Source: Rhodobiaceae bacterium
Lineage (GTDB): Bacteria; Pseudomonadota; Alphaproteobacteria; Rhizobiales; Aestuariivirgaceae
NCBI GenBank assembly: GCA_009885825.1
Contig: VFJY01000014.1
Span: forward strand, 1 to 34,468
Direction: 5' to 3'
Length of the DNA stretch: 34,468 bases
This document shows, one piece after another, positions 16,527-34,468 of this stretch (positions within the stretch are counted from its first letter, which is position 1; each line of letters begins with the position of its first letter). Under the pieces are notes generated by a model that had not been told where the DNA came from, did no database searches, and saw nothing but the letters and a program-made list of their open reading frames with translations. Made by a program: the position numbers and the translations under genes.

Positions 16527-17790
16527 ATGGACTTCGATCTTGCCCATCTGACGGATGACACAGCTGCGCTGCAAGCGCTGGTGCGCGCACTGGCAAGCAC
16601 GGTTTAGGCGAAAGATTTGAAGATCGCGCAGCTGGAGCTACGCATCGCCAAATTGAAGCGCCTGCAGTTCGGCGCATCATCGGAGAAGAGTAGCTTCGAG
16701 ATCGAGCAGCTGGAGATGGAACTCGACGAGCTGCATGAGGATGAAGCGGCCCAAGCTGCGACGCGTCCTGCTGTCGTACAGGCCCTCACTGATAAACCCT
16801 TTCGCAAACCGCCGCCGGAATGTCTGCCGCGCGAGGAGGAGGTTCATGAACCCGCCTGCACCTGCCCGAACTGCTGTGGTGCGATGCGCAAGCTCGGTGA
16901 AGACGTGACGGAGGTGCTGGAGTATGTCCCGTCATCATTCAAAGTCATCTGGCATGTGCGTCCCAAACTGTCATGCCGCAGTTGTGAAACGATTGTGCAA
17001 TCGCCGATGCCCTCGCTGCCCATCGAGCGTGGCCCGGTCTTCTCGCCCATGTGCAGGTGGCCAGATACGCCGATCACCTGCCGCTCTATCGCCGATCCGG
17101 CAGTTATGCCCGTGAGGGTGTTGATCTGGAATGCTCCACCCTGGCCGACTGGGTCGGCAGATCGGCGGCGCTCCTTGATCCTTTGAGTGCAGCTTTGCGC
17201 AAAGACGTGCTGGCCTCAGACGTTCTGCATGGCGATGATACGCCGGTTCCGGTGCTGGCTCCGGGCCTGGGCAAAACCCGGACAGGCCGATTATGGGCCT
17301 ATGTTCGCGACGGCAGACCGTGCGCTTCGGATCAGCCCCCGGCTGCCGTGTTCTTCTATTCGCCCGACCGCAAGGGTGATCATCCGCAGTCCCATCTCAA
17401 GACCTTCAAGGGCATTCTTAACGCCGATGGTTATGCGGGCTTCAATGCCATCTTCGAAACGGAACCGTGATGGAAGCTGCCTGCTGGGCTCACGTGCGGC
17501 GCAAGTTCTTTGATGTTCACGCCGCTACAGGGTCTACAGGGTCGCCTATTGCCAAAGAGACGCTTGACCACATCGGTGCGCTTTACAAGATTGAGGCCGA
17601 TATCAGGGGCAAGCCGCCTGATGAACGGCTGCAATGGCGGCAGGAACATGCCATGCCGCTCATTGCTGGTCTCAAAATCTGGCTCGAAATAACGTTGCCA
17701 AAACTCTCCGGCAAATCCGATCTTGCATCCGCCATGCGTTATGCCCTCGGCCGCTGGGGCGCACTTGGTCGTTTCCTTCATGATGGCCGC
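16527..17790 (+). pseudogene. tnpC: IS66 tnpC transposase, multiply broken and 3'-truncated
   Basis: The frame begins at ATG 16527 (MDFDLAHLTDDTAALQALV) and meets an in-frame TAG at 16605-16607. It resumes with the coiled coil and LKRLQFGASSEKS motif, then the Cys-rich zinc finger (CTCPNCCGAMRKLGEDVTEVLEY, LSCRSC). Frame is lost near 17030-17040, where a few residues are missing, and continues as GLLAHVQVARYADHLPLYRR and DVLHGDDTPVPVLAPG with the first catalytic Asp region. It is lost again by one base near 17460 and resumes with MEAACWAHVRRKFFD. Homology to TnpC stops at ALGRFLHDGR (17790), before the segment that normally contains the catalytic Glu (NNAAERAIRP in relatives). The gene is dead. 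Confidence 0.88.
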
Positions 17791-18171
17791 AAGACCACGC
17801 TTGGCCAACTCATTGAGGCTGGCATCCAGCGTCCAATCTACACTTACGATTTTGGCGATGACTGGCGGCATGTGAACCTGGTTGAATCAGTCGCCGCTGC
17901 CGAGACCGCCACCGGCTATCCGCGCTTCATCGCAGGAGCCAATCGCGCGCCGCCAGAGGATGTTGGAGGCCAGCCTGGCTTCGAACACTTCCTCAACGTC
18001 ATGGCCGATCCCGCTCATTCCGAACATGCCGACATCACTCAATGGTACGGCAGCACCTTCAATCCCAAAGACATCGCCGAAACCGAGATCACCCTCCGCG
18101 TTGCTAAACTGGCCAAACGCCGAACAATTACAAAAACGGCCCCCGCCAAATCAAAACGCCAGATCAAATGA
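17467..18171 (+). CDS. Chimeric ORF: TnpC fragment fused to pRiA4b ORF-3-like C-terminal domain
   Basis: A 234-residue open frame. The first 108 residues are IS66 TnpC (ACWAHVRRKFFD, IGALYKIEADIRG, MRYALGRWGAL). From about 17791 the sequence becomes KTTLGQLIEAGIQRPIYTYDFGDDWRHV, then APPEDVGGQPGFEHFLNVMADPAH and WYGSTFNPKD. These are the conserved blocks of the pRiA4b ORF-3-like family (PF07929), ending in a Lys/Arg-rich tail. The N-terminal half of that family is absent. The reading frame crosses the junction intact, but GTG/ATG 17467 is an artefact of the upstream tnpC frameshift, so expression is doubtful. It is best read as a recombination scar. Confidence 0.75.
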   Translation: MMEAACWAHVRRKFFDVHAATGSTGSPIAKETLDHIGALYKIEADIRGKPPDERLQWRQEHAMPLIAGLKIWLEITLPKLSGKSDLASAMRYALGRWGALGRFLHDGRKTTLGQLIEAGIQRPIYTYDFGDDWRHVNLVESVAAAETATGYPRFIAGANRAPPEDVGGQPGFEHFLNVMADPAHSEHADITQWYGSTFNPKDIAETEITLRVAKLAKRRTITKTAPAKSKRQIK

Positions 18172-22681: not shown

Positions 22682-22722
22682 AGAATAGGCGATGTGCAAC
22701 GCGCATCATTGATCACGATCAA
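22682..22722 (-). promoter_or_regulatory. FixK/FNR-type box with -10, ABC exporter promoter
   Basis: TTGATCACGATCAA (22709-22722) is a perfect TTGAT-N4-ATCAA palindrome. On the minus strand TATTCT (22687-22682) follows after 21 bases, nearly the spacing of class II FNR promoters (site centred at -41.5). The predicted start of transcription is near 22675, about 20 bases before the ATG of the ATPase. The site centre is 86 bases before the divergent DUF4010 gene, so it could serve both directions. Confidence 0.75.
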
Positions 22723-24085: not shown

Positions 24086-24099
24086 TTGATCCCGATCAA
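24086..24099 (+). promoter_or_regulatory. FixK/FNR-type box upstream of the arc-like operon
   Basis: TTGATCCCGATCAA is a perfect TTGAT-N4-ATCAA palindrome centred 58 bases before the antiporter ATG at 24151. The -10 expected for a class II promoter (about 24122-24127, CAGTCT) is poor. The sequence just downstream (ATCAATGCG) also follows the site at 22709. Confidence 0.75.
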
Positions 24100-24150: not shown

Positions 24151-25620
24151 ATGGCAAATGTCACAAGCATTCCGGTAAACGCGGCAAAGCAGAAGCTGGC
24201 CTCTCAGTTGGGCCTGTTGCCGCTGACTGCCCTGGTTGTGGGATCCATGATTGGCGGCGGCGTATTCAGTCTCCCGCAGAACATGGCAAAAGGGGCTTCC
24301 CCGGGAGCCGTCATTCTTGGATGGCTCGTTGCCGGCATTGGCATTCTGGCGCTCGCCCTGGTCTACCGGAACCTTGCCACTCGCAAGCCCGAGCTCAACG
24401 CGGGCCCCTATGCCTATGCGCGCGCGGGGTTTGGCGATTTTGTCGGATTCAATAGCGCGTGGGGATATTGGCTAAGTGCCTGGATTGGCAACGTTTCTTA
24501 CGCCGTTCTCATATTTGGCGCGCTGAGTTACTTCGTTCCGGCGTTCGGGGCGGAAGGCAATACCTGGCAAGCCATTGTCGGCGCTTCAATTTGTCTATGG
24601 CTCATTCACGCACTGGTTCTCCTGGGTGTGCGCCAGGCAGCGGTTGTCAATGTAATCACAACAATTGCCAAGCTCGCTCCCATATTTGTTTTCATTGTTG
24701 CTGCATTGGTGGCCTTCAATCTGCAAACATTCAGCCTCAACTTTTGGGGCACAGGCACCCCGGATCTCGGTGATGTCATGACTCAGGTGAAAAGCACCAT
24801 GCTGGTCACGCTGTGGGTATTTATCGGCATTGAAGGCGCCAGTGTGGTCTCGGCGCGGGCCGAACGGCGGACCGACATCGGCTATGCGACGATTCTGGGT
24901 TTCGTCGGCGTGCTCGGCGTGTATCTCCTGGTTTCGCTGCTGTCTTTTGGTGTCATGTCGCAGCCGGAGCTGGCTGGTCTTCCCAGTTCAGCCTCCATGG
25001 CCAATGTGCTTGAAAAGGCCGTTGGCCCGTGGGGCTCCGTGCTGGTGCGGATTGGGCTGGTCGTTTCAGTTGCGGGCGCGTTCCTGAGCTGGACTTTGTT
25101 TGCTGCTGAAATTGCAAACCGCGCGGCCAGGGAGGGCATGATGCCGGATGTGTTCGCGGTGGAAAATGAGAATGGTTCTCCGTCCGGCTCGCTTTGGATC
25201 ACCAATGGCTTTGTCCAGATATTTTTGGTCATCACGCTCTATTCCAACTCAACTTACCTGGCGCTGTTCTACATCGCATCGACCGCCATTCTTGTGCCTT
25301 ATGTGCTCTCGGGGGCTTACGCGCTCAAGCTCGCGATGAGCGGCGAGAGTTATGATGCGGATGAGAGCCGGGGCTGGGACAAATTCGTTGGCCTTGTCGC
25401 CGCCGTCTACGGGGCATGGCTGATTTATGCCGCTGGACCAAATTATCTCCTGATGTGCGCGCTCCTCTATGCGCCGGGCATCGTCGTCTACGGGTGGGCA
25501 CGTTGGGCGCGTGGCGAAAAAGCATTTGATCAGACAGAAGCCATCATCGCAATCGGCCTATTGCTGGCCGCCATAGTGGCCGGATACCTCATGTGGACCG
25601 GCTCCATCAGCGCACTTTGA
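24151..25620 (+). CDS. arcD: APC-family amino acid antiporter, arginine/ornithine (ArcD-like)
   Basis: A 489-residue transporter with about 12-13 membrane helices. GLLPLTALVVGSMIGGGVFSL is the substrate-binding first helix of basic amino acid/polyamine antiporters, and AGPYAYARAGFGDFVGFNSAWGYW is typical of arginine-ornithine exchangers of the APC type. In arc operons this protein brings in arginine (or citrulline) and exports ornithine without energy cost. ATG 24151 is chosen because AAGGAG lies 6 bases before it; the longer frame back to 24064 would run through the FixK/FNR-type site. It is the first gene of a four-gene operon with gaps of 21, 13 and 3 bases. The exact amino acid pair is inference. 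Confidence 0.88.
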   Translation: MANVTSIPVNAAKQKLASQLGLLPLTALVVGSMIGGGVFSLPQNMAKGASPGAVILGWLVAGIGILALALVYRNLATRKPELNAGPYAYARAGFGDFVGFNSAWGYWLSAWIGNVSYAVLIFGALSYFVPAFGAEGNTWQAIVGASICLWLIHALVLLGVRQAAVVNVITTIAKLAPIFVFIVAALVAFNLQTFSLNFWGTGTPDLGDVMTQVKSTMLVTLWVFIGIEGASVVSARAERRTDIGYATILGFVGVLGVYLLVSLLSFGVMSQPELAGLPSSASMANVLEKAVGPWGSVLVRIGLVVSVAGAFLSWTLFAAEIANRAAREGMMPDVFAVENENGSPSGSLWITNGFVQIFLVITLYSNSTYLALFYIASTAILVPYVLSGAYALKLAMSGESYDADESRGWDKFVGLVAAVYGAWLIYAAGPNYLLMCALLYAPGIVVYGWARWARGEKAFDQTEAIIAIGLLLAAIVAGYLMWTGSISAL

Positions 25621-25641
25621 AAATTCAACGGAGAGACTTCA

Positions 25642-27015
25642 ATGCTGAATGAACCCAAACCTGTCAATGTCGTCATCATGGGCGCCGCAGGACGCGACTT
25701 CCACAATTTCAATGTCGCTTTCAGGGATAACCCCCACTATCACGTGGCGGCTTTCACGGCGGCGCAGATTCCGGGCATTTCCGGCAGGCGGTATCCTAAG
25801 GCCTTGGCCGGCAAACTCTATCCCAATGGAATTCCGATCCTGGGTGAAGGAGACCTCGCAACGATCTGCAAGGAATATTCGGTCGACAAGGTGGTCTTCG
25901 CCTACAGCGATGTGGACCATGCTACGGTGATGCACAAGGCGTCAATTGCACTTGCCGCAGGCGCCGACTTCGAATTGCTGGGCCCGCATCGGACAATGAT
26001 AAAATCAAAACTTCTCGTCATTGCAATTTGCGCGGTCAGGACCGGCGTGGGAAAATCGCAAACCACCCGCTGGCTGGGCCGCAAATTGCGGGATGCCGGG
26101 ATCAAGGCCGCGGTCATCCGCCATCCCATGCCTTATGGCGATCTTGAAAAGCAGGCGGTGCAGCGTTTTGCCAAACTCCCGGACCTTGACGACGCCAAAT
26201 GCACGATCGAGGAGCGCGAGGAGTATGAGCCCCATATCGCTGCCGGAAACATTGTCTTTGCTGGCGTTGACTATGAACGCATTTTGCGCGAAGCCGAAAA
26301 AGAAGCGCAGATCATCCTGTGGGATGGCGGCAACAATGATTTCTCGTTCTATAAGCCCGACCTTCATATCGTGATGGTCGATCCACTGCGCCCGGGCCAT
26401 GAAACCACGCACCATCCAGGCGAAGCCGTTCTGCGCATGGCCGACATAGCGGTCATTGCCAAAACGAATTCAGCGGCGCGGGCCGATGTTCAGAAGGTTA
26501 CCGACAATATCAGGCACATCCATCCGAAGGCGCATATTGTGCGGGCAGCCTCGCTGGTGACGCTGGACAACGAAGCGGCCGTCAAGGGCAAGCGGGCTAT
26601 CGTTGTTGATGACGGCCCCACCATCACCCATGGCGGCATGGCCTATGGCGCGGGCTATGTCGCGGCATCCGTTGGGCATGCTGCGGAAATAATTGATCCC
26701 AGGCGTTTCGCCGTCGGCGAAATTTCCAATGTCTACAAGAAATACCCGCATATCGGGAAAGTGCTCCCGGCCATGGGCTACTCGGCCGATGAGCTTGCCG
26801 ATCTTGCAGCAACGATAAATGCGGCCGACTGCGATGTTGTGGTGGCCGGAACGCCAATTGATCTCGGCCGGCTCCTGAAATTGAACAAGCCGGTGGTTCG
26901 CGCGCGCTATGAATTTGCCGAAGCGGACGGGCCGTCGCTGGGCTTCTACATAGACATCTTTCTTCGCGAACACGGATTGATCCCGACGGAAAAATTGATC
27001 ACCTCGGCCGCCTAG
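25642..27015 (+). CDS. COG2403 P-loop protein (cyclic 2,3-diphosphoglycerate synthetase-like)
   Basis: A 457-residue protein of the predicted-GTPase family COG2403, related to archaeal cyclic 2,3-diphosphoglycerate synthetase. The N-terminal Rossmann-like part has [13 protein letters not shown] at residues 12-24. A P-loop-like [11 protein letters not shown] lies at 130-140, with Val where the first Gly/Ala of Walker A is usual. Further blocks are [14 protein letters not shown] (227-240), DPLRPGHE (247-254) and IAKTNSA (272-278). The archaeal enzyme uses ATP to cyclise 2,3-diphosphoglycerate; no bacterial activity is established to my knowledge. Its place between the antiporter and ornithine carbamoyltransferase suggests a role with carbamoyl phosphate, citrulline or an acyl-phosphate. 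GGAGAG precedes ATG 25642. Family call is strong; function open. Confidence 0.85.
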
Positions 27016-27028
27016 CGGAGCAAAGCCC

Positions 27029-28030
27029 ATGCCGTTCAACTTGCGGAATCGCAGTTTTCTAACGCTTCGCGATTTCACGCCAGAGGAGATCAAGTTCCTT
27101 CTGATGCTGTCGGCGGAACTCAAAGCCGCGAAATACGCAGGCACAGAACAGCAGAGGCTCAAGGGCAAGAGCATTGCCCTGATTTTTGAGAAAGCATCAA
27201 CGCGAACCCGTGTCGGCTTTGAAGTCGCGGCTTATGATCAGGGCGCGCATGTCACCTATCTTGGCCCCAGCGGCACCCAAATCGGCTACAAGGAATCCAT
27301 GAAAGACACGGCGCGTGTGCTGGGGCGGATATATGACGCGATCGAGTACCGGGGCTTTGGCCAGCAGGTGGTGGAAGAGCTGGCGAAATATGCCGGCGTG
27401 CCCGTCTACAATGGCCTGACCGACGAGTTTCATCCGACCCAGGTTCTGGCTGATCTCCTGACGATGCAGGAACACTGTGAGAAGCCGCTCAGCCAGATGA
27501 GTTACTGCTTTATCGGCGATGCAGGAAACAACATGGGCGATTCACTCCTGATTGGCGGGGTCAAAATGGGAATGGATGTCAGGTTATGCGCTCCGAAATC
27601 CTGCTGGCCAGACAGGGAACTGGTTGAGCATGCCGAGAAAATGTCGCTGGAAACCGGCGCGCAAGTTGAAGTCACTGAAAATCTGGCGGAAGCCGTCAAG
27701 GACTGCGATTTCCTCTATACCGATGTGTGGCTCTCCATGGGCGAACCGGAGGAAAAGTGGGCCGAGCGCATAAAGTTGCTCAAGGATTTTCAGGTCAACG
27801 CCAAAGTCATGAAAATGACGGGCAATCCACGCTCCAAGTTCATGCATTGCCTGCCGGCTTTTCACAATGCCGAAACCAAAGTCGCCAAGGAAGTCAGGAA
27901 AAAATTCGGGATCAGCGCCATGGAGGTGACCGAGGAGGTATTCGAGTCCCCGGCTTCAATTGTGTTTGACCAGGCCGAAAACCGCATGCACGCCATCAAG
28001 GCGATTCTTGTGGCAACCATAGGGAATTGA
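27029..28030 (+). CDS. arcB: Ornithine carbamoyltransferase, catabolic type
   Basis: A 333-residue carbamoyltransferase that interconverts citrulline plus phosphate with ornithine plus carbamoyl phosphate. The carbamoyl-phosphate loop STRTR is at residues 57-61, EFHPTQ near 137, [13 protein letters not shown] near 233 carries the ornithine SMG loop, and MHCLPAFH near 273 has the catalytic Cys. The intact SMG and the C-terminal [26 protein letters not shown] favour ornithine rather than putrescine, and the length matches catabolic ArcB rather than the shorter anabolic ArgF. Adjacent carbamate kinase indicates the citrulline-degrading direction. GGAGC lies 7 bases before ATG 27029. No arginine deiminase is in the window, so the citrulline source is unclear. 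Confidence 0.95.
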
Positions 28031-28033
28031 TCG

Positions 28034-28942
28034 ATGCGCGTGGTCATTGCACTTGGCGGCAACGCAATTCTCAAACGCGGCCAGCCATTGTCGGCCGAGA
28101 ACCAGCGGCAGAATGTCAAACGCGCCGCGATAGCCATCGGCAAGGTCGTCGATGCCGGCTACGAAATCGTCATCACCCATGGCAATGGCCCGCAGGTGGG
28201 TCTTATGGCGCTCCAGGACATGGCCTATGACGAGGCGCTGGCCAGCCCAATCGACGTGCTTGGCGCTGAAACCGAAGGCATGATCGGCTATCTGATCGAG
28301 CAGGAACTGGGAAACGTCATACCCGTCAAGAATGAAGTGGCGGCTTTGCTGACGCAAGTGGAAGTCGATGCCGACGATCCTGCCTTTCAAAATCCGACAA
28401 AGCCAATTGGCCCCATGTATGGCCGCAAGGAAGCAACCGCTGTCACCGCCAGGCGGGGTTGGGTGATGGTGCCCGACGGATCGCATTTCAGGCGCGCCGT
28501 GCCTTCACCACTGCCCAAACGCATCCTGGAAATCGGCGTCATAAGGCTTTTGATCAAGCACGGAGTCACCGTGATTTGCGCCGGGGGCGGTGGCATTCCA
28601 GTTCTTCGCCGCGTAGATGGATCTTATATCGGCGTCGAAGCTGTCATTGACAAGGACTACGCCAGCGGCTTTCTGGCCCGCCAAATCAGCGCCGATATCC
28701 TTCTGATGCTGACCGATGTTGATGGCGTCTACAACGGCTGGGGAACCGTGCAGCAGCGCCGTTTGGAGCAGGCCAGGGCAAATGACCTAAACCCGGAGTC
28801 ATTCGCCGCCGGAAGCATGGGCCCCAAGGTGCGGGCCGCCGTGGATTTCGTCTCAGCCGGCGGAACAATGGCGGGAATTGGCAAGCTTGAAGACGCGCTC
28901 AAAATTTTGAAGCGCCGCGCGGGCACCGTGATTGAACCATGA
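28034..28942 (+). CDS. arcC: Carbamate kinase
   Basis: A 302-residue amino-acid-kinase-fold enzyme that transfers phosphate from carbamoyl phosphate to ADP, yielding ATP, ammonia and CO2. Visible blocks are VIALGGNAILKRGQ (phosphate loop), ITHGNGPQVGLMALQ near 48, ICAGGGGIPVLR near 181, the VIDKDYASGFLA nucleotide/active-site segment near 200, LMLTDVDGVY near 216 and GSMGPKVRAAVDFV near 257. Length matches ArcC. The ATG at 28034 is only 3 bases after the arcB stop, so the two are almost certainly translated together. It is the last gene of the operon. It runs convergent to the BON-domain gene across a 210-base gap. Confidence 0.96.
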   Translation: MRVVIALGGNAILKRGQPLSAENQRQNVKRAAIAIGKVVDAGYEIVITHGNGPQVGLMALQDMAYDEALASPIDVLGAETEGMIGYLIEQELGNVIPVKNEVAALLTQVEVDADDPAFQNPTKPIGPMYGRKEATAVTARRGWVMVPDGSHFRRAVPSPLPKRILEIGVIRLLIKHGVTVICAGGGGIPVLRRVDGSYIGVEAVIDKDYASGFLARQISADILLMLTDVDGVYNGWGTVQQRRLEQARANDLNPESFAAGSMGPKVRAAVDFVSAGGTMAGIGKLEDALKILKRRAGTVIEP

Positions 28943-29152: not shown

Positions 29153-29800
29153 TTATGCAATATTGATATGATCGACGACCGATACGACGCCGGGCGCGGA
29201 CCAGGCGGTGCGTTCCGCCAGATCACGCTCGTACCAGGCTTTCACCTTGCCATCGAGCGTGACGCGGCCATCAAGGACGGACACTTTTATTGAATCCGCC
29301 TCAAGTTCCGCATTGCGTTTCAGGGCGGTCTCGATGCGCTCCTTGATGTCATAGGCATAGGCCTTCGGCTTGATCCGGATTTCGTTGGACAGGCCTTTGA
29401 TTCCGGCCAGCTTTCTGACGGCATGCTCCGCATCGTCGCGCTGGTAGAACCAGTCAACCTCGCCGGAAAGCGTCACAAATCCATTTTGCACTTTCACCAG
29501 CACCTTGTCCTTGGGGATCGTCGAATCCCAGGCGATGATGTCCAATGCCCGCTTGGCGATCTGGTCATCGGATGTTTTTTTGTCATTGGGGAAGCGGATT
29601 TCGATTTCCTGGGCAATTGCCCGGACACCTTTCACCCGTTTGGCGGCCTTCTCAGCCGTAAACTTCTCCGCATAAGTGCTGACATGGCCCGAAAGCGTTA
29701 CGACGCCATCTTCGACGGTGACGCCGATGTGTTCCGAATCAATGCTTGGCTCCCAGTCCAGTTCTTCTTCAACCGCGTGTTTTAAGGTTTTGTCACTCAT
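29153..29800 (-). CDS. Protein with three BON domains (OsmY-like)
   Basis: A 215-residue protein of three consecutive BON domains, about residues 3-70, 76-145 and 153-215. Each repeats the pattern xIGVTVEDGVVTLSGHVxxYxEKxxAExAAxRVKGV (the second has VQNGFVTLSGEVDWFYQRDDAEHAVRKL, the third VLDGRVTLDGKVKAWYERDLAERTAW). BON domains bind phospholipid or envelope surfaces; OsmY relatives are osmotic and stress proteins. No signal peptide is seen, so it is probably cytoplasmic or membrane-peripheral. ATG 29800 is chosen for AGGAGAA 7-8 bases upstream; the upstream extension in frame is unlike the family. A FixK/FNR-type site lies 88 bases ahead of the start, and the neighbours are universal stress proteins. 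Confidence 0.92.
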   Translation of the reverse strand: MSDKTLKHAVEEELDWEPSIDSEHIGVTVEDGVVTLSGHVSTYAEKFTAEKAAKRVKGVRAIAQEIEIRFPNDKKTSDDQIAKRALDIIAWDSTIPKDKVLVKVQNGFVTLSGEVDWFYQRDDAEHAVRKLAGIKGLSNEIRIKPKAYAYDIKERIETALKRNAELEADSIKVSVLDGRVTLDGKVKAWYERDLAERTAWSAPGVVSVVDHINIA

Positions 29801-29881
29801 CTGAATTCTCCTGAATATTGAAGGCATTCCGCATAATACGCTTGCCAGCTGGTATCTTCGCAATTCCTGCTGCTGACTGCA

Positions 29882-29895
29882 TTGAGCTGGATCAA
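29882..29895 (-). promoter_or_regulatory. FixK/FNR-type box upstream of the BON-domain gene
   Basis: TTGAGCTGGATCAA matches TTGA-N6-TCAA exactly (minus-strand reading TTGATCCAGCTCAA). It is centred 88 bases before ATG 29800, and lies 25 bases past the stop of the upstream Usp gene. No strong -10 is seen at the class II distance. Confidence 0.65.
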
Positions 29896-29920
29896 GCTCA
29901 CGATGCTTTCTGTGGGCGTC

Positions 29921-30334
29921 CTATCTCGCGACCGTAACCGTGCAGTGCGCTCGACCCGCGATATCGACGGCCACCGAGCCCAGCGCCAGACGGGACAGGC
30001 CACGCTTGTCGCCTGTACCCGTGACAATGTGGTCAAAGCCGTTCTGTTCCGCATATTGGACAACCGAGGTCGAAATCTCACGGCCTTTGAGTTCCGTTTC
30101 AGCAAGGTTTTTCACCCCGTGCTGGCGCGCCAGCGCCGCCGCGTTGTCAAGCATTTTCCTGACGTCCACGTCGTCATGCAGGTATATCGGCGGGCCGCGA
30201 AGGCCGCCCATCAACACATTGACGGTGCAAACGGTGAGCTGGGCGCCGGTTTTGCTGGAAAGTTCCGCAGCGCAGAGAATGGCGTTCTTGGCGTGCTCGG
30301 TGTCGTCAATCGCGCACAGGATCTTGCTTGTCAT
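29921..30334 (-). CDS. Universal stress protein, single UspA domain
   Basis: A 137-residue UspA-fold protein: KILCAIDDTEHAKNAI at the N-terminus, GAQLTVCTVNVL, then ADHIVTG-type FDHIVTGTGDKRGLSRLALGS at the C-terminus. The nucleotide loop G-x2-G-x9-G-S has Asp at the second Gly (GTGD), so ATP binding may be altered. ATG 30334 is chosen for AGGAG 8 bases upstream. Usp proteins help survival under starvation, hypoxia or redox stress. A FixK/FNR-type site with a class II-spaced -10 precedes it, giving this gene one of the best-supported promoters in the island. Confidence 0.92.
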   Translation of the reverse strand: MTSKILCAIDDTEHAKNAILCAAELSSKTGAQLTVCTVNVLMGGLRGPPIYLHDDVDVRKMLDNAAALARQHGVKNLAETELKGREISTSVVQYAEQNGFDHIVTGTGDKRGLSRLALGSVAVDIAGRAHCTVTVAR

Positions 30335-30368
30335 GATGGCTACTCCTGAAATCAACAAAGCAGCTTGA

Positions 30369-30410
30369 AGCATAGGCTCGGGTTGGGGGCCGCGCCTTGA
30401 TCGGCGTCAA
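30369..30410 (-). promoter_or_regulatory. FixK/FNR-type box with -10 upstream of the single-domain Usp gene
   Basis: TTGATCGGCGTCAA (30397-30410) matches TTGA-N6-TCAA. On the minus strand TATGCT (30374-30369) follows after 22 bases, the class II FNR spacing. Transcription would start near 30362, about 28 bases before the ATG at 30334. Confidence 0.72.
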
Positions 30411-30423
30411 TTTCTGCGGAACT

Positions 30424-30810
30424 TCAGCGCCGCGGCTGATCAAGCGGCACGACTGAAACAATCCGGAAGGTCCGCAAGTCCTCGCCGTGCTCGCGGATTG
30501 AAATGTACTCGCCGGGAGTCAGCGCGTGATCGCCAAAGCGATAGCCTGTTTCGTCGTCGTCAATGTCGCCGTGGATGTCATAATGAAAAGCCCAGGACCC
30601 ACCGGGCTTGCGCACGAGATGGCCAATTTCATCGGGCTCATCTTCCCAGAAGCGCTTGACGCGGCATTTTTCCCGGTTGGCTTGCCACGACTTGGCATCA
30701 ATATGGCGCTTCTTGTCGAGGGGCGCCACAAATTCATAGCCATGCCGTGAACTGCCTTCGGGAAACTCGGCGTCACGGGCCATTTCAATTCTTACCTTGC
30801 TGAGCGTCAT
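30424..30810 (-). CDS. Conserved-looking hypothetical protein, function unknown
   Basis: A 128-residue acidic, soluble protein without signal peptide or membrane helix. I do not recognise the family. It contains HGYEFVAPLDKKRHIDAKSW, RFWEDEPDEIGHLVRKPGGSWAFHYDI, an acidic loop (DIDDDETGYRFGDH) and LTPGEYISIRE near the end, suggesting a compact beta-rich fold. ATG 30810 is preferred over a codon at 30828 that overlaps the upstream Usp stop; it begins 14 bases after that stop, so the gene is very probably in the same operon as the tandem Usp gene and shares its stress context. Confidence 0.75.
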   Translation of the reverse strand: MTLSKVRIEMARDAEFPEGSSRHGYEFVAPLDKKRHIDAKSWQANREKCRVKRFWEDEPDEIGHLVRKPGGSWAFHYDIHGDIDDDETGYRFGDHALTPGEYISIREHGEDLRTFRIVSVVPLDQPRR

Positions 30811-30824
30811 CGCCGCCTGCCTTC

Positions 30825-31679
30825 TCAATGGGACATCAAGACAGGAACGCTCATATGCTCCAGCACATGGCTGGTGGCGCCTCCGAACACGAATTCGCGC
30901 ATTCGGGAGTGCGCATAGGCGCCCATCACAACAAGGTCGGCGCCGAGATCATTGGCGCGCAGCAAAAGCGCCTCGCCGGCATTGCGGCCATTGGTCATCA
31001 TGGGTTCGGCGACAACATTCAGGCCGTGACGCGACAATGCCGCGGCTTCTTCCGCACCCGGAACATCGCCCGCCTCGCTCTGTTGCTTGTAGGGATCAAC
31101 CCAGATGACACGGGTTTCCTTGACCAGGCTGAGGAGAGGCAGGGCGTCGAACATGGCTCTTGCGGACTCGCGCGTCCCATTGATGCCAACCAGGGCCTTC
31201 TCCGCAAACCCCTCACCGGTTGGGGCAAAGCGGCCTTTTCTGGGTATCATCAGCACCGGCCGCCCTGATTCCATCACAAGCCGCTCAGCCAAATCCGATT
31301 CAATATTGCCATCGGAGTCACCGTCGACCTGGCTGATCACAATGAGGTCCGCCTGGCGCCCATGGGCAATGGCGCTCTCCGCTATGTTGGGATAGGTGGA
31401 ATCGATGGTCCGCCACTCTCCCTTCAGTCCATCGCGCCTGACCCTGTCGTCGAAACGCTGGTGAACCGCGTCAAGCTTCGCCTTGAACAGATCGCGATAG
31501 CCCTCAAAGAGAATAGGCGTCGCCATCATTCCAACGTCGGCATAGACCTGCATGGCGGGCAGAACATAGAGGCCGATGAGATGGGCATCGCATTGAAGCG
31601 CTATTGAACTGGCAGCATCAAGCAATTGCTCAGTTCGGTCCGCGTCATTCAACAACGCCATCACTGTCTTATAGGACAT
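30825..31679 (-). CDS. Universal stress protein, tandem UspA domains
   Basis: A 284-residue protein with two UspA folds, about residues 1-145 and 155-284. The first has MSYKTVMALLNDADRTEQLLDAA and ADLIVISQVD. The second has KALVGINGTRESARAM, ADLVVMGAYAHSRMREFVFGGATSHVLEHMSVPVLMSH, where the nucleotide loop resembles the UspE-like consensus. Tandem Usp proteins are common in hypoxia and nitrosative stress regulons. ATG 31679 is preferred because GAGGAG lies 7 bases before it; the in-frame ATG two codons earlier is too close to that site. It lies 20 bases downstream of the DUF2892 gene. Confidence 0.93.
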   Translation of the reverse strand: MSYKTVMALLNDADRTEQLLDAASSIALQCDAHLIGLYVLPAMQVYADVGMMATPILFEGYRDLFKAKLDAVHQRFDDRVRRDGLKGEWRTIDSTYPNIAESAIAHGRQADLIVISQVDGDSDGNIESDLAERLVMESGRPVLMIPRKGRFAPTGEGFAEKALVGINGTRESARAMFDALPLLSLVKETRVIWVDPYKQQSEAGDVPGAEEAAALSRHGLNVVAEPMMTNGRNAGEALLLRANDLGADLVVMGAYAHSRMREFVFGGATSHVLEHMSVPVLMSH

Positions 31680-31699
31680 GTCCATGCTCCTCGCGAATG

Positions 31700-31888
31700 C
31701 TAGTTGGTCTTGAGACCCAATATGGAGTAAAGCGGGCAATAGCCCACGAATGCGGTGATTATGGGCACCACTCCGATCCAGCCCAAATAGCTGTAGGGCG
31801 TGTCTGGCGCAAGCAGCGCCAATGCGATGAGGGCTGCGCCGCCAACAACGCGGGCGACGCGGTCAACAGTTCCAATATTGGTGTTCAT
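31700..31888 (-). CDS. DUF2892 (YgaP-like) small membrane protein
   Basis: A 62-residue protein with two membrane helices (about 11-27 and 33-53). The family pattern is clear: MNTNIGTVDRVARVVGG at the start, GWIGVVPIITAFVGYCPLYSILGLKT at the end, including the conserved Cys-Pro. DUF2892 forms the membrane part of the rhodanese YgaP and also occurs alone; a stand-alone role is not known. TAGGAG lies 7 bases before ATG 31888. It sits between the host-attachment-type gene (21-base gap) and the tandem Usp gene. Confidence 0.9.
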   Translation of the reverse strand: MNTNIGTVDRVARVVGGAALIALALLAPDTPYSYLGWIGVVPIITAFVGYCPLYSILGLKTN

Positions 31889-31909
31889 GATATTCTCCTA
31901 AATCCCGGG

Positions 31910-32362
31910 TTATAGAGGCAGATCATCCTTGATGTGCTCAAAGATATAGTCATTGGTTTGGTAGGCATAATCGCGCACAATCTCCGCCAGCAGCATGTTC
32001 TGCAATTGCGGAGTGAGATCCTTGCGCAATTCTCCCAGCGCGGTCGCCGGGGCCACCACAACAAGATGCTCAAAATCACCATGCTTTGCGGCACCTGAAA
32101 GATGATGCACCACTTTCTGCAGGAAACGGAGCTTGCGCTGCATATGAGGACCGATGCGCGGCTCCACCGCATGACGCGCAAACCCAACTGATTCATGAAC
32201 GCGCGGCTGACGATCTGTCACAAGTTCATGGGTCGGGGCGTGATCGTCGTGAAAATCACCATTGGCCAATTGCCGAACCCCGGAAGCGCGCCCGAGGTAG
32301 AGCAGAATCCTCGCCCGGGCGCCGTCAACAACCAATATCCAAGTACGGTTCAATTTCATCAT
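31910..32362 (-). CDS. Host-attachment-type protein (PF10116)
   Basis: A 150-residue protein of the family named for Agrobacterium attachment to host cells. Visible marks are TWILVVDGARARILLY at the N-terminus, the polar middle with RQPRVHESVGFARHAVEPR, HLVVVAPATALGELRKDL near 105, and a tail LAEIVRDYAYQTNDYIFEHI. The fold is similar to release-factor/Pelota middle domains; the name reflects one phenotype and is a poor guide to activity here. Two adjacent ATGs (32362, 32359) are possible. It is downstream of Hsp20 beyond a hairpin, and upstream of DUF2892 and Usp genes. Confidence 0.87.
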   Translation of the reverse strand: MMKLNRTWILVVDGARARILLYLGRASGVRQLANGDFHDDHAPTHELVTDRQPRVHESVGFARHAVEPRIGPHMQRKLRFLQKVVHHLSGAAKHGDFEHLVVVAPATALGELRKDLTPQLQNMLLAEIVRDYAYQTNDYIFEHIKDDLPL

Positions 32363-32387
32363 CTCATTCCGCCTGCGGGGCAAACAA

Positions 32388-32422
32388 GAGGAAGGGATGG
32401 AATGCGTCCAGCGCCCTTCCTC
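32388..32422 (-). terminator. Hairpin after the Hsp20 gene
   Basis: GAGGAAGGG (32388-32396) and CCCTTCCTC (32414-32422) form a perfect 9-base stem with a 17-base loop. On the minus strand it is followed by TTGTTTG, a modest T-rich run. It lies about 30 bases past the Hsp20 stop and 26 bases before the next ATG, so it may end most hsp20 transcripts or attenuate read-through to the downstream stress genes. Confidence 0.6.
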
Positions 32423-32453
32423 AAGTATTGAAGTTGCAACATAGCGGAGGATG

Positions 32454-32945
32454 CTATGCTGCTGCCCTAACTTCAATCTTCTGTGGTTTTACCTGTGCCT
32501 CCACAGGCTTCTGAACCGTCAGCTTGAGAACGCCTTTTTCAAATTTGGCGTCGATTTTTGCGGCATCGGCCTTGAAAGGCAGCATCATGCTGCGCTCGAA
32601 TGTTCCGTAGGACCGCTCAACCAAATGATAATCCTTGGCCTTTTCCTCCTTGTCGGATTTCTTCTCAGCCTTGATTATCAGCATGTCGCCAGCCAGCGAA
32701 ACGTCGATATCCTTTTCATTGACGCCTGGAAGATCGGCGGTCACCTCAATCGCCTTGTCCGTTTCGGCGACGTCAACTTGCACAACGAGCCTTCCGCCGC
32801 CGTTGCCGCTCCAGCGCTCAACCATCGGAAAATCCGACGTGAAATCGCTGAACAGCCTGTCGATTTGACTCTGAAGCATGCGGAATGGCTCACGTTCATT
32901 CCGGGCATCGCTCCAAAGGGCGGGTAACATTGATCTTACTTTCAT
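32454..32945 (-). CDS. Hsp20/alpha-crystallin family small heat-shock protein
   Basis: A 163-residue chaperone that holds unfolding proteins without ATP. The alpha-crystallin domain spans about residues 55-150: VQVDVAETDKAIEVTADLPGVNEKDIDVSL, LIIKAEKK, YGTFERSMMLPFKADAAKIDAKFEKGVLKLTVQKP, the last with the GVLxLTV groove motif. The C-terminal QKIEVRAAA contains the IxV-type anchoring motif (IEV). ATG 32945 is preferred because GGAG lies 9 bases upstream, within a region that would otherwise code for the 5 extra residues from ATG 32960. A FixK/FNR-type site lies 78 bases upstream; no heat-shock hairpin or sigma-32 promoter is evident. Confidence 0.94.
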   Translation of the reverse strand: MKVRSMLPALWSDARNEREPFRMLQSQIDRLFSDFTSDFPMVERWSGNGGGRLVVQVDVAETDKAIEVTADLPGVNEKDIDVSLAGDMLIIKAEKKSDKEEKAKDYHLVERSYGTFERSMMLPFKADAAKIDAKFEKGVLKLTVQKPVEAQVKPQKIEVRAAA

Positions 32946-33016
32946 TTTTTGCGTCTCCATCGTGTGATAGACTAAAACCTACTGGTGATTTCTCGCAGCA
33001 TTTGAAGTTCCCGGCA

Positions 33017-33030
33017 TTGACTTCGATCAA
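33017..33030 (-). promoter_or_regulatory. FixK/FNR-type box upstream of the Hsp20 gene
   Basis: TTGACTTCGATCAA matches TTGA-N6-TCAA (minus-strand reading TTGATCGAAGTCAA) and is centred 78 bases before ATG 32945. It overlaps the TGA stop (33027-33029) of the helix-hairpin-helix gene upstream. The expected class II -10 position is not a good match. Confidence 0.68.
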
Positions 33031-33905
33031 CCTGAAACTGAATTTCCAGCAGGCTCGGCGCACTCTTTCTCACGCCCTCGGACCACGCGCTTGCCCTTGA
33101 GTTGGCCCATGGTTTCAGTCACGACCGTGCATTGGCTCTCAACCGCGTGATCGCTTGCGTAGAAAATGATGACCCAGTCTGCCGTTTTTCCCAGTTCGTG
33201 GGCGCGCGCCGTATTCGAAAAAAGTGCGGTAAACTGCCAGTGATCGCGCGTGGTATGGAGGATTGGCAACCACGCCATGCCGCCGGGATTGAATCTCCTG
33301 GGGGAAATCAGCTTCAAGCCACCGGCTGTAGCTTTTTCGCGGTATTCGCGGTCGACGGCCAAAATGGTTCCGACTGATGGCGCTGCCGCAAGAGAATTGC
33401 GCTGCACCAGTGGCCGCCTTCGCTCCAGTATGCTCGCAAGTGAGCTCTGGATGATCTTGATGCGACGCTTGCCAATGCCGGGCACGGTATCAAGCCGCCC
33501 GTCATGCGCGGCGGCTTCCAGCGCTTCAAGCGTGTCAACGTGCAAGTGTTCATGAATGAGATGGGCAAATACTGGCCCGATGCCGGGGATGTACTGAAAC
33601 ATCAATTCAGGCTCGAGCGTTCCACGCAAGCGCTCAAGTTGTGACCAACGGCCCGTGGTTGTCAGCTGCGCAATGGCGGATGCAATTGATTTTCCGATAT
33701 GGGGCAGGGCATCGATCGCCTCAGGCCCCCTGGCCGCGATGATGGCAATATCTTCGCGCAACTCTTCAATTGTCTTGGCGGCTTTCAAATAAGCAGTGAC
33801 GCGGAATGACGTGTCGCCTTGCGCAGCCAGCAGTTTTGCGGCCTCGCGCAACGCTTCAGCGATCAAGGCATTGTGCTCCAGCACTCTGGGGGCGTCGACG
33901 TTCAT
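33027..33905 (-). CDS. Helix-hairpin-helix protein resembling the PolX N-terminal region
   Basis: A 292-residue protein. Residues about 10-75 look like the 8-kDa domain of family X DNA polymerases (NALIAEALREAAKLLAAQ, FRVTAYLKAAKTIEEL, LPHIGKSIASAIAQL). Two helix-hairpin-helix motifs follow: YIPGIGPVFAHLIHEHL near 105 and TVPGIGKRRIKIIQSSL near 140. The polymerase palm with its metal aspartates, expected next, is absent. Instead there is a 120-residue C-terminal part (ILAVDREYREKA, PRRFNPGGMAWLPILHTTRDHW, FTALFSNTARAHELGKT, GQLKGKRVVRGRE) with no recognised domain. The protein probably binds gapped or nicked DNA; an enzymatic role is unproven. The start is uncertain: ATG 33905 or GTG 33914. 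Confidence 0.82.
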   Translation of the reverse strand: MNVDAPRVLEHNALIAEALREAAKLLAAQGDTSFRVTAYLKAAKTIEELREDIAIIAARGPEAIDALPHIGKSIASAIAQLTTTGRWSQLERLRGTLEPELMFQYIPGIGPVFAHLIHEHLHVDTLEALEAAAHDGRLDTVPGIGKRRIKIIQSSLASILERRRPLVQRNSLAAAPSVGTILAVDREYREKATAGGLKLISPRRFNPGGMAWLPILHTTRDHWQFTALFSNTARAHELGKTADWVIIFYASDHAVESQCTVVTETMGQLKGKRVVRGREKECAEPAGNSVSG

Positions 33906-33964
33906 TTTGCTCACACCACCATTTGCGATTGGGAGTGCAATGGACTGGAGAACCCGAACGCGCC

Positions 33965-33978
33965 ATGAGCCAGATCAA
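33965..33978 (-). promoter_or_regulatory. FixK/FNR-like site upstream of the helix-hairpin-helix gene (one mismatch)
   Basis: ATGAGCCAGATCAA (minus-strand TTGATCTGGCTCAT) differs from TTGA-N6-TCAA in one end base. It is centred 66 bases before ATG 33905, the same range as the perfect sites, and lies in the 87-base gap after the regulator gene. Confidence 0.45.
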
Positions 33979-33992
33979 TTTCTGCCGCATAT

Positions 33993-34468
33993 TCAGGCAG
34001 CGGCCATGACGGGGCCCGCAATCCGTGGAATTTCGCTGGTATCCTGTCCAGCCGCCATCGCGAGTGCATAGGGGTTGAGCACCTTCATCACATGGCGGTC
34101 AAATTCCAGAATGCCCTGCTCGCTGAGTTTCCCCAAGGTTCGGCACACATGCTCATTGGACAGGCCAAGTGCATCTGCGATCATGATCTGGGTAATGGGT
34201 AAGTTCAACCCACCCTCGCATGTTGCGGACTTGCCAGGCTGCGCACGTGCCATGAGCTCGGCGATGAGGGCAGCGACACGTTCGCGCGCACTGCGGCGAC
34301 CAAGGCCGATCAAGTGTTCATGGGCGCGCATCTCGCTCTCCGATAGTCTGTCCGCTATGCTGACCGCGAGCAGAGGGCATTTGGAGAGGAGTTGCCGAAA
34401 CTGCGGATAGGGCAAGACAGCGACTATGCAGCTCGTCACTGTCTCTGCGCCGTACCAGCTGGCGCGGC
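33993..34468 (-). CDS. Crp/Fnr-family transcription regulator, 5' end outside window
   Basis: The frame is open to the right edge, giving the C-terminal 158 residues of a Crp/Fnr protein. Visible are the end of the cyclic-nucleotide-binding-like barrel (WYGAETVTSCIVAVLPYPQF), the dimerisation helix (LLSKCPLLAVSIADRLSESEMRAHEHLIGLG) and the winged helix-turn-helix (LPITQIMIADALGLSNEHVCRTLGKLSEQGIL). The recognition helix has Glu and Arg of the FNR pattern E-x-x-S-R but Cys in place of Ser (EHVCR). These Glu and Arg contacts read TTGA half sites, matching the island's boxes. The missing N-terminus would show whether an oxygen-sensing Cys cluster exists. It is the probable local controller. Confidence 0.9.
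   Translation of the reverse strand, partial: RASWYGAETVTSCIVAVLPYPQFRQLLSKCPLLAVSIADRLSESEMRAHEHLIGLGRRSARERVAALIAELMARAQPGKSATCEGGLNLPITQIMIADALGLSNEHVCRTLGKLSEQGILEFDRHVMKVLNPYALAMAAGQDTSEIPRIAGPVMAAA

Follow-up and report, generated by a model that had tools for sequence, protein, structure and literature searches.

What takes the place of arginine deiminase (ArcA) in an arc-type operon that lacks it? The question is raised by the window studied here, a stretch of 34,468 nucleotides from a Rhodobiaceae bacterium (assembly GCA_009885825.1, contig VFJY01000014.1, positions 1 to 34,468, forward strand), which carries an operon (24151-28942) for an ArcD-like antiporter, a P-loop protein of the family COG2403, an ornithine carbamoyltransferase (OTC) and a carbamate kinase (CK). 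We think the balance tips slightly towards L-arginine/L-citrulline interconversion by the COG2403 protein, which would probably act as an ATP-linked citrulline:ammonia ligase and run in reverse in this operon. The label COG2403 comes from a preliminary description of the DNA, and no COG models were among those searched.

The four genes lie on the forward strand and are separated by exactly 21, 13 and 3 bases, as the preliminary description of a single operon had it. The first, arcD (24151..25620), begins with an ATG preceded directly by aaggag and encodes an arginine/ornithine antiporter (TIGR03810, 608.3 bits; cut-off 591). The next gene (25642..27015) encodes the COG2403 protein, our proposed citrulline-arginine enzyme, with 457 residues arranged in an N-terminal alpha/beta domain and a P-loop domain. 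It is followed by arcB (27029..28030), encoding the OTC (TIGR00658, 437 bits, cut-off 281; NF003286, 536, over the cut-off of 515; NF002470, 539, slightly below the cut-off of 545), and by arcC (28034..28942), encoding the CK (TIGR00746, 379 bits, cut-off 358; NF009008, 442, cut-off 361). Curated models therefore place in this operon the OTC and CK as well as the arginine/ornithine antiporter of an Arc system. The claim that arcA is missing held for the whole source genome (222 contigs, 98.08% complete), in which nothing scored over the TIGR01078 cut-off; four partial matches, none above 40 bits, fall in two short proteins on other contigs that resemble arginine deiminase (ADI) and DDAH (317 and 335 residues; Pfam ADI, 75.8 and 58.8 bits). 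Since a second OTC is encoded on contig C13, arcB is not the sole OTC gene, which gives the operon the look of an additional, catabolic module. Its COG2403 gene is rare nearby, being found in the source genome only among 41 genomes searched as relatives, and in the source genome and one other among 398 genomes of the phylum. A recent foreign origin was rejected on composition, as GC content and third-position GC resemble those of the neighbouring genes, very patchy as the gene's presence nonetheless is.

The COG2403 protein fell in no Pfam family, and none of the NCBIfam families scored over cut-off. Our literature search found no paper naming COG2403 and, on the function of the family, nothing beyond cyclic 2,3-diphosphoglycerate synthetase (cDPGS). 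The family is widespread over bacteria and archaea, and an alignment of 140 bacterial and archaeal sequences contains 59 invariant residues, among them the lysine of the P-loop (RTGVGKSQ, residues 133-140 in our protein). AlphaFold2 gave a model with a predicted local distance difference test score of 94.3 and a predicted template modelling score of 0.92. Its top Foldseek match was cDPGS (8oru, E 1.6e-18), followed by LpxK, DUF1611/DgcN and HypB, with CTP synthase as a weak match at rank 39 (7mif, E 2.4e-3). The family profile likewise finds cDPGS in the PDB (9sxb, E 3.4e-10). The predicted fold fits a phosphoryl-transfer enzyme.

We then asked which genes accompany the family elsewhere. A contig scan with a four-sequence alignment gave at least 574 relatives among 590 candidate stretches, and 80 loci were kept; among the phyla are Pseudomonadota, Cyanobacteriota, Ignavibacteriota, Caldisericota, Bacillota and Woesearchaeota. 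Calling OTC and CK by BLAST with the window proteins, we found one or both within 22 of the 80 loci, and directly adjoining the COG2403 gene in 20, on which ground we rejected the idea that the gene had entered the arc operon by chance. When ten such neighbours, including one on a haloarchaeal plasmid, were checked with models, all seven OTCs and two of the three CKs scored over cut-off. In two haloarchaeal plasmids the CK gene is divergent from the COG2403 gene, which on the annotated plasmid lies amid universal stress proteins. The recurrence of the arcB/arcC association in several phyla supports the preliminary view that COG2403 genuinely belongs to an arginine pathway lacking ArcA. We had looked both for an arcA over cut-off in the genome and for neighbours of COG2403 that vary at random, and found neither.

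The step performed by the protein is suggested by two complementary gaps. Both were surveyed in 299 genomes from the phylum of G449, the genome of a Symbiobacterium metagenome-assembled genome (MAG; locus L060), which are of Firmicutes type. COG2403 was scored as present on a full or near full-length profile match with E under 1e-100, a threshold of our choosing, which gave 88 of the 299; 15 genomes with weaker matches, one of them a 40-position fragment (G702), were counted as negative. The first gap is in arginine biosynthesis. In 75 genomes argG was absent or did not reach its cut-off: 46 of the 88 with COG2403 and 29 of the 211 without it (p 1.6e-11). Among these 75, argC was over cut-off in 19 of the 46 with COG2403 and in 7 of the 29 without, and of these 26 genomes argH was over cut-off in none of the 19 and in two of the 7. 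This leaves 24 genomes with argC and neither argG nor argH over cut-off; COG2403 is present in 19 of them, compared to 42 of the 224 genomes that hold argG (p 4e-9), and full-length ArcA was found in none of the 19. Two of the 19, G479 and G727, each consist essentially of one contig (2,936,195 and 2,360,781 bases). Each has an operon argC-argJ-argB-argD-OTC without argG or argH, and the COG2403 gene elsewhere in the genome (L192 and L193, with L185 and L187); on the family tree the G479 protein groups with that of a Syntrophomonadaceae MAG. In other genomes the genes are joined: L186 has argC-argJ-argB-argD-OTC-GNAT-COG2403 on one strand, with argC, argJ and OTC over cut-off, L154 has argC-argJ-argB-OTC-COG2403, and L177 has OTC-COG2403. 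In the 78 genomes of the first scan, ArgG was over cut-off in 42 and partial in one more; as many of these are MAGs, absence there means little.

A small GNAT acetyltransferase gene lies directly 5' of the COG2403 gene in L186 (8379-8801, checked with Pfam and NCBIfam) and, as judged by eye, in L182, L183 and L187. At a guess, it could be an N-acetylglutamate synthase.

The second gap is in ornithine fermenters, whose pathway in C. difficile is described in PMC8803604. D-ornithine aminomutase (OraE) was over cut-off in 53 of the 299 genomes, and COG2403 is enriched among them (35 of 53, compared to 53 of the 246 others; p 9e-10). In 22 of the 35 genomes holding both, the two matches start no more than 10 kb apart on one contig. 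Two loci, L157 and L169, show the co-directional order ord-ortA-ortB-oraS-oraE-or4-orr-CK-OTC-COG2403. L163 keeps this order with two additional genes and no oraS called, and its Ord, OrtA, CK and OTC are over cut-offs. We assigned the genes of these three operons by visual inspection, and ran model checks on genes of the same types in other loci as well: OraE scored 1214 and 1281 bits in L023 and L064 (cut-off 800), OrtB was over cut-off in L023 and Or-4 in L064, and the Orr-like racemases of L017, L022, L023 and L060 were below the Orr cut-off. Full-length ArcA (E under 1e-100) occurs in 30 of the 299 genomes. Among the OraE genomes it was found in 12 of the 18 without COG2403 and in 5 of the 35 with it (p 3e-4); put the other way, COG2403 is present in 30 of the 36 that lack ArcA and in 5 of the 17 that have it. 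Over a broader sample, which took in 28 genomes with COG2403 and several phyla, TIGR01078 was over cut-off in none. As a separate observation, a gene of Memo/AMMECR1 type and an AmrS-like radical SAM gene, named by eye, follow orr in the ornithine fermentation operon of L163 (8119-10480), and likewise in L172 and L176.

Because loss of ArgG and ArgH blocks the conversion of citrulline to arginine, and loss of ArcA the reverse, both gaps converge on the citrulline-arginine step. In the operon of the window, ArcD would bring arginine in and ornithine out, the COG2403 protein, standing in ArcA's place, would convert arginine to citrulline and ammonia, ArcB would split citrulline into ornithine and carbamoyl phosphate, and ArcC would make ATP from the latter. 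In other bacteria the family would take over the last part of arginine biosynthesis from ArgG and ArgH. Because energy is required in the anabolic direction and the P-loop is conserved, ATP-linked ligase chemistry seems likeliest: the ureido oxygen would be phosphorylated and then displaced by ammonia, much as CTP synthase does with UTP. The specific reaction, citrulline + NH3 + ATP <-> arginine + ADP + Pi, is a tentative proposal, and catabolic operons would run it backwards. In a FastTree phylogeny of the 140 sequences, in which many branches are weak, anabolic contexts and contexts of OTC, CK or ornithine fermentation are interleaved, with 7 parsimony changes (the anabolic label included G577, whose argC is not over cut-off). 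One reaction that can be run either way would account for this interleaving more simply than repeated changes of function. The hydrolysis of arginine to citrulline releases about the energy that ATP synthesis needs, so the ATP-linked reaction could lie near equilibrium and run both ways. To our knowledge a citrulline:ammonia ligase has no known counterpart, and we found no paper on ATP-dependent citrulline amination or citrulline ammonia ligase under the phrases tried. The OTC equilibrium is unfavourable in the catabolic direction, as stated in PMC7818446.

Could the protein act instead on carbamoyl phosphate, as had been suggested at the outset? It might make carbamate from bicarbonate and ammonia, as a substitute for carbamoyl phosphate synthetase, or protect or channel carbamoyl phosphate. 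Carbamoyl phosphate is common to OTC and CK, either of which adjoins the gene alone in many loci, and a P-loop fold could phosphorylate a carboxylate. Such an activity, however, predicts neither the loss of the two genes that operate downstream of citrulline, argG and argH, nor the inverse pattern of ArcA in the ornithine fermenters. Because many COG2403 genomes have neither argG nor argH, we prefer the arginine-citrulline step, reject a carbamoyl phosphate enzyme as first choice, and consider it unlikely. The interpretation in the preliminary description therefore stands as to membership in an arginine pathway without ArcA, and is disfavoured where it had the protein feed or drain carbamoyl phosphate or another acyl phosphate. 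Equally improbable, in our judgement, is an external supply of citrulline, or its production by a small ADI/DDAH-like hydrolase encoded elsewhere, with COG2403 binding nucleotides in an accessory or regulatory role within the arginine/ornithine system. The two short ADI-family proteins of the source genome could supply such a hydrolase, and the HypB/UreG-like P-loop proteins that match the fold can be accessory proteins; yet ArcD belongs to the arginine-ornithine antiporters, an accessory role would not make up for missing ArgG and ArgH, and 59 residues held invariant between bacteria and archaea look like an active site.

Two further identities are less probable again. An alternative argininosuccinate synthase, with aspartate as nitrogen donor and another lyase of the fumarase family completing the step, would account for the loss of argG, and some gap genomes do have weak matches to the argH model, of up to 109 bits (cut-off 279.5). 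However, argH is missing too, four gap genomes (G474, G541, G565 and G594) have no argH-model match at E 0.001, and the activity would be senseless in catabolic operons, which makes this reading very doubtful. The name cDPGS, which some records carry, including that of an annotated haloarchaeal homologue, would imply a role in stress protection, in line with the shared overall fold and with the universal stress proteins around that haloarchaeal copy. By profile and predicted structure the protein does have the two-domain fold and P-loop of cDPGS. According to PMC10690619, K145 and R146 of the cDPGS P-loop bind 2,3-diphosphoglycerate (2,3-DPG), and cyclic 2,3-diphosphoglycerate is exclusive to hyperthermophilic methanogens. 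The COG2403 protein lacks this pair, having T134 and G135 at the aligned positions, both invariant in the 140 sequences, although this stretch of the alignment is weak; its neighbours, moreover, concern arginine. The 2,3-DPG idea of the preliminary description was thus disfavoured, and identity as a cDPG synthetase was rejected on the P-loop residues and the neighbours, as the least credible of these readings.

Several observations weigh against an arginine-citrulline enzyme and temper our preference for it. The gap genomes could be arginine auxotrophs; five of the 24 genomes with the gap lack COG2403 (G476, G483, G599, G685 and G704), argG is present in 42 of the 88 COG2403 genomes, and the split of argC by COG2403 among argG-less genomes is not significant (p 0.14). 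Five OraE genomes hold both ArcA and COG2403, and over all 299 genomes the two are not significantly exclusive (ArcA in 6 of 88 with COG2403 and in 24 of 211 without; p 0.29). Two of the 28 genomes in the broader sample have long ArcA matches below cut-off (287 and 263 bits), which may be deiminases. In the neighbourhood scan, 58 of the 80 loci show neither OTC nor CK in the fetched flank, many of the contigs being short. The surveyed genomes are related, were compared without a species tree and are of unstated completeness, so that the p-values overstate independence. Finally, the reaction is a prediction.

How the operon may be controlled is suggested by its upstream region. A perfect match to TTGAYN4RTCAA, which we take to be the FNR/FixK-type consensus, lies upstream of arcD (TTGATCCCGATCAA, 24086..24099, strand unassigned), 51 bases from the start codon. 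The window contains four matches, at 22709, 24086, 30397 and 33017, compared to 0.20 expected, and none of 100 shuffles reached four; one lies 5' of a MgtC/DUF4010 gene, one of arcD and one of an Hsp20 gene. The four boxes likely mark an oxygen-limitation regulon, and from them we infer control of the arc-type operon by oxygen limitation. A Crp/FNR-type regulator, truncated at the window end so that its C-terminal part remains (33993..34466, reverse strand; PF13545 HTH_Crp_2, 52.5 bits), is a candidate for the protein acting at the box. Scans of the window for sigma-70 promoters and terminators gave no more matches than in shuffles. The regulator gene belongs to a stress island (29153-34466) that also encodes a BON-domain protein, a universal stress protein, a Host_attach/baeRF family 12 (attachment/release-factor-like) protein, Hsp20 and a helix-hairpin-helix protein. 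At 16617-18171, frames resemble pieces of an IS66-type transposase, as judged by eye.

Other genes were seen beside COG2403 in the loci scanned. An ArgS-like gene, named by eye, lies within two genes of it in 13 loci, mostly of Anaerolineae, probably by plain synteny. GlmS lies near it in Ignavibacteria and SucCD in two loci. In L048 and L075 succinyl-CoA ligase genes come next after a CK gene that adjoins COG2403, and to these L048 adds Kor-type genes and L075 nucleoside diphosphate kinase (all by eye). In two Pseudomonadota a gene of succinate-semialdehyde dehydrogenase type directly follows COG2403 (L013, 10480-11952; L039, 4758-6227), model-checked in L039 only. On a Salinigranum plasmid (L012, 5986-9026) the COG2403-family gene and the kinase gene are both broken, with a transposase between them.

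If the arginine-citrulline interconversion is right, one uncharacterised family fills both the ArgG/ArgH and the ArcA gaps, replacing two arginine-synthesis enzymes in some anaerobes, and predicted arginine auxotrophies need revision; a gut study (PMC9026213), for one, assigned five genomes with such a gap to the auxotrophs. A conserved bacterial and archaeal family would gain a function, and textbook amino acid metabolism a new reaction. Run in reverse, the ligase would save the energy that ArcA wastes, yielding two ATP from arginine instead of one. As the family occurs across bacteria and archaea, an enzyme that saves energy in this way could be ancient.

Set beside known systems, the family shares with cDPGS (PDB 8ORK, 8ORU, 9SXB) the two-domain fold, the P-loop and remote sequence similarity, and differs in its invariant Thr/Gly for Lys/Arg, its wide spread and its arginine-linked neighbours. 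With CTP synthase, which carries out the ATP-dependent amination of a ureide carbonyl, the presumed chemistry is alike and the fold match weak; the COG2403 protein has no glutaminase domain, and we claim no membership. The anabolic loci follow the arginine biosynthesis operon (argCJBDF with argGH), with argC, argJ, argB, argD and OTC likewise in order in L186, L192, L193 and L194, whereas argG and argH over cut-off are missing from these genomes, and in L186 and L154 the arginine genes of the operon end with COG2403. The clostridial ornithine fermentation cluster (ord, ortAB, oraSE, or-4, orr) is also recognisable, with Ord, OrtA, OrtB, OraE and Or-4 over cut-offs in tested loci. In contrast to that cluster, the COG2403 loci are extended by co-directional genes for CK, OTC and COG2403, the Orr tested were below cut-off, and no NCBIfam model recognised the OraS that was checked. 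The operon of the window itself resembles the arginine deiminase operon arcDABC, which likewise unites antiporter, OTC and CK and makes ATP from carbamoyl phosphate, as we propose here. The difference is that ArcA is absent, and that an unrelated P-loop protein fills the arcA position between arcD and arcB.

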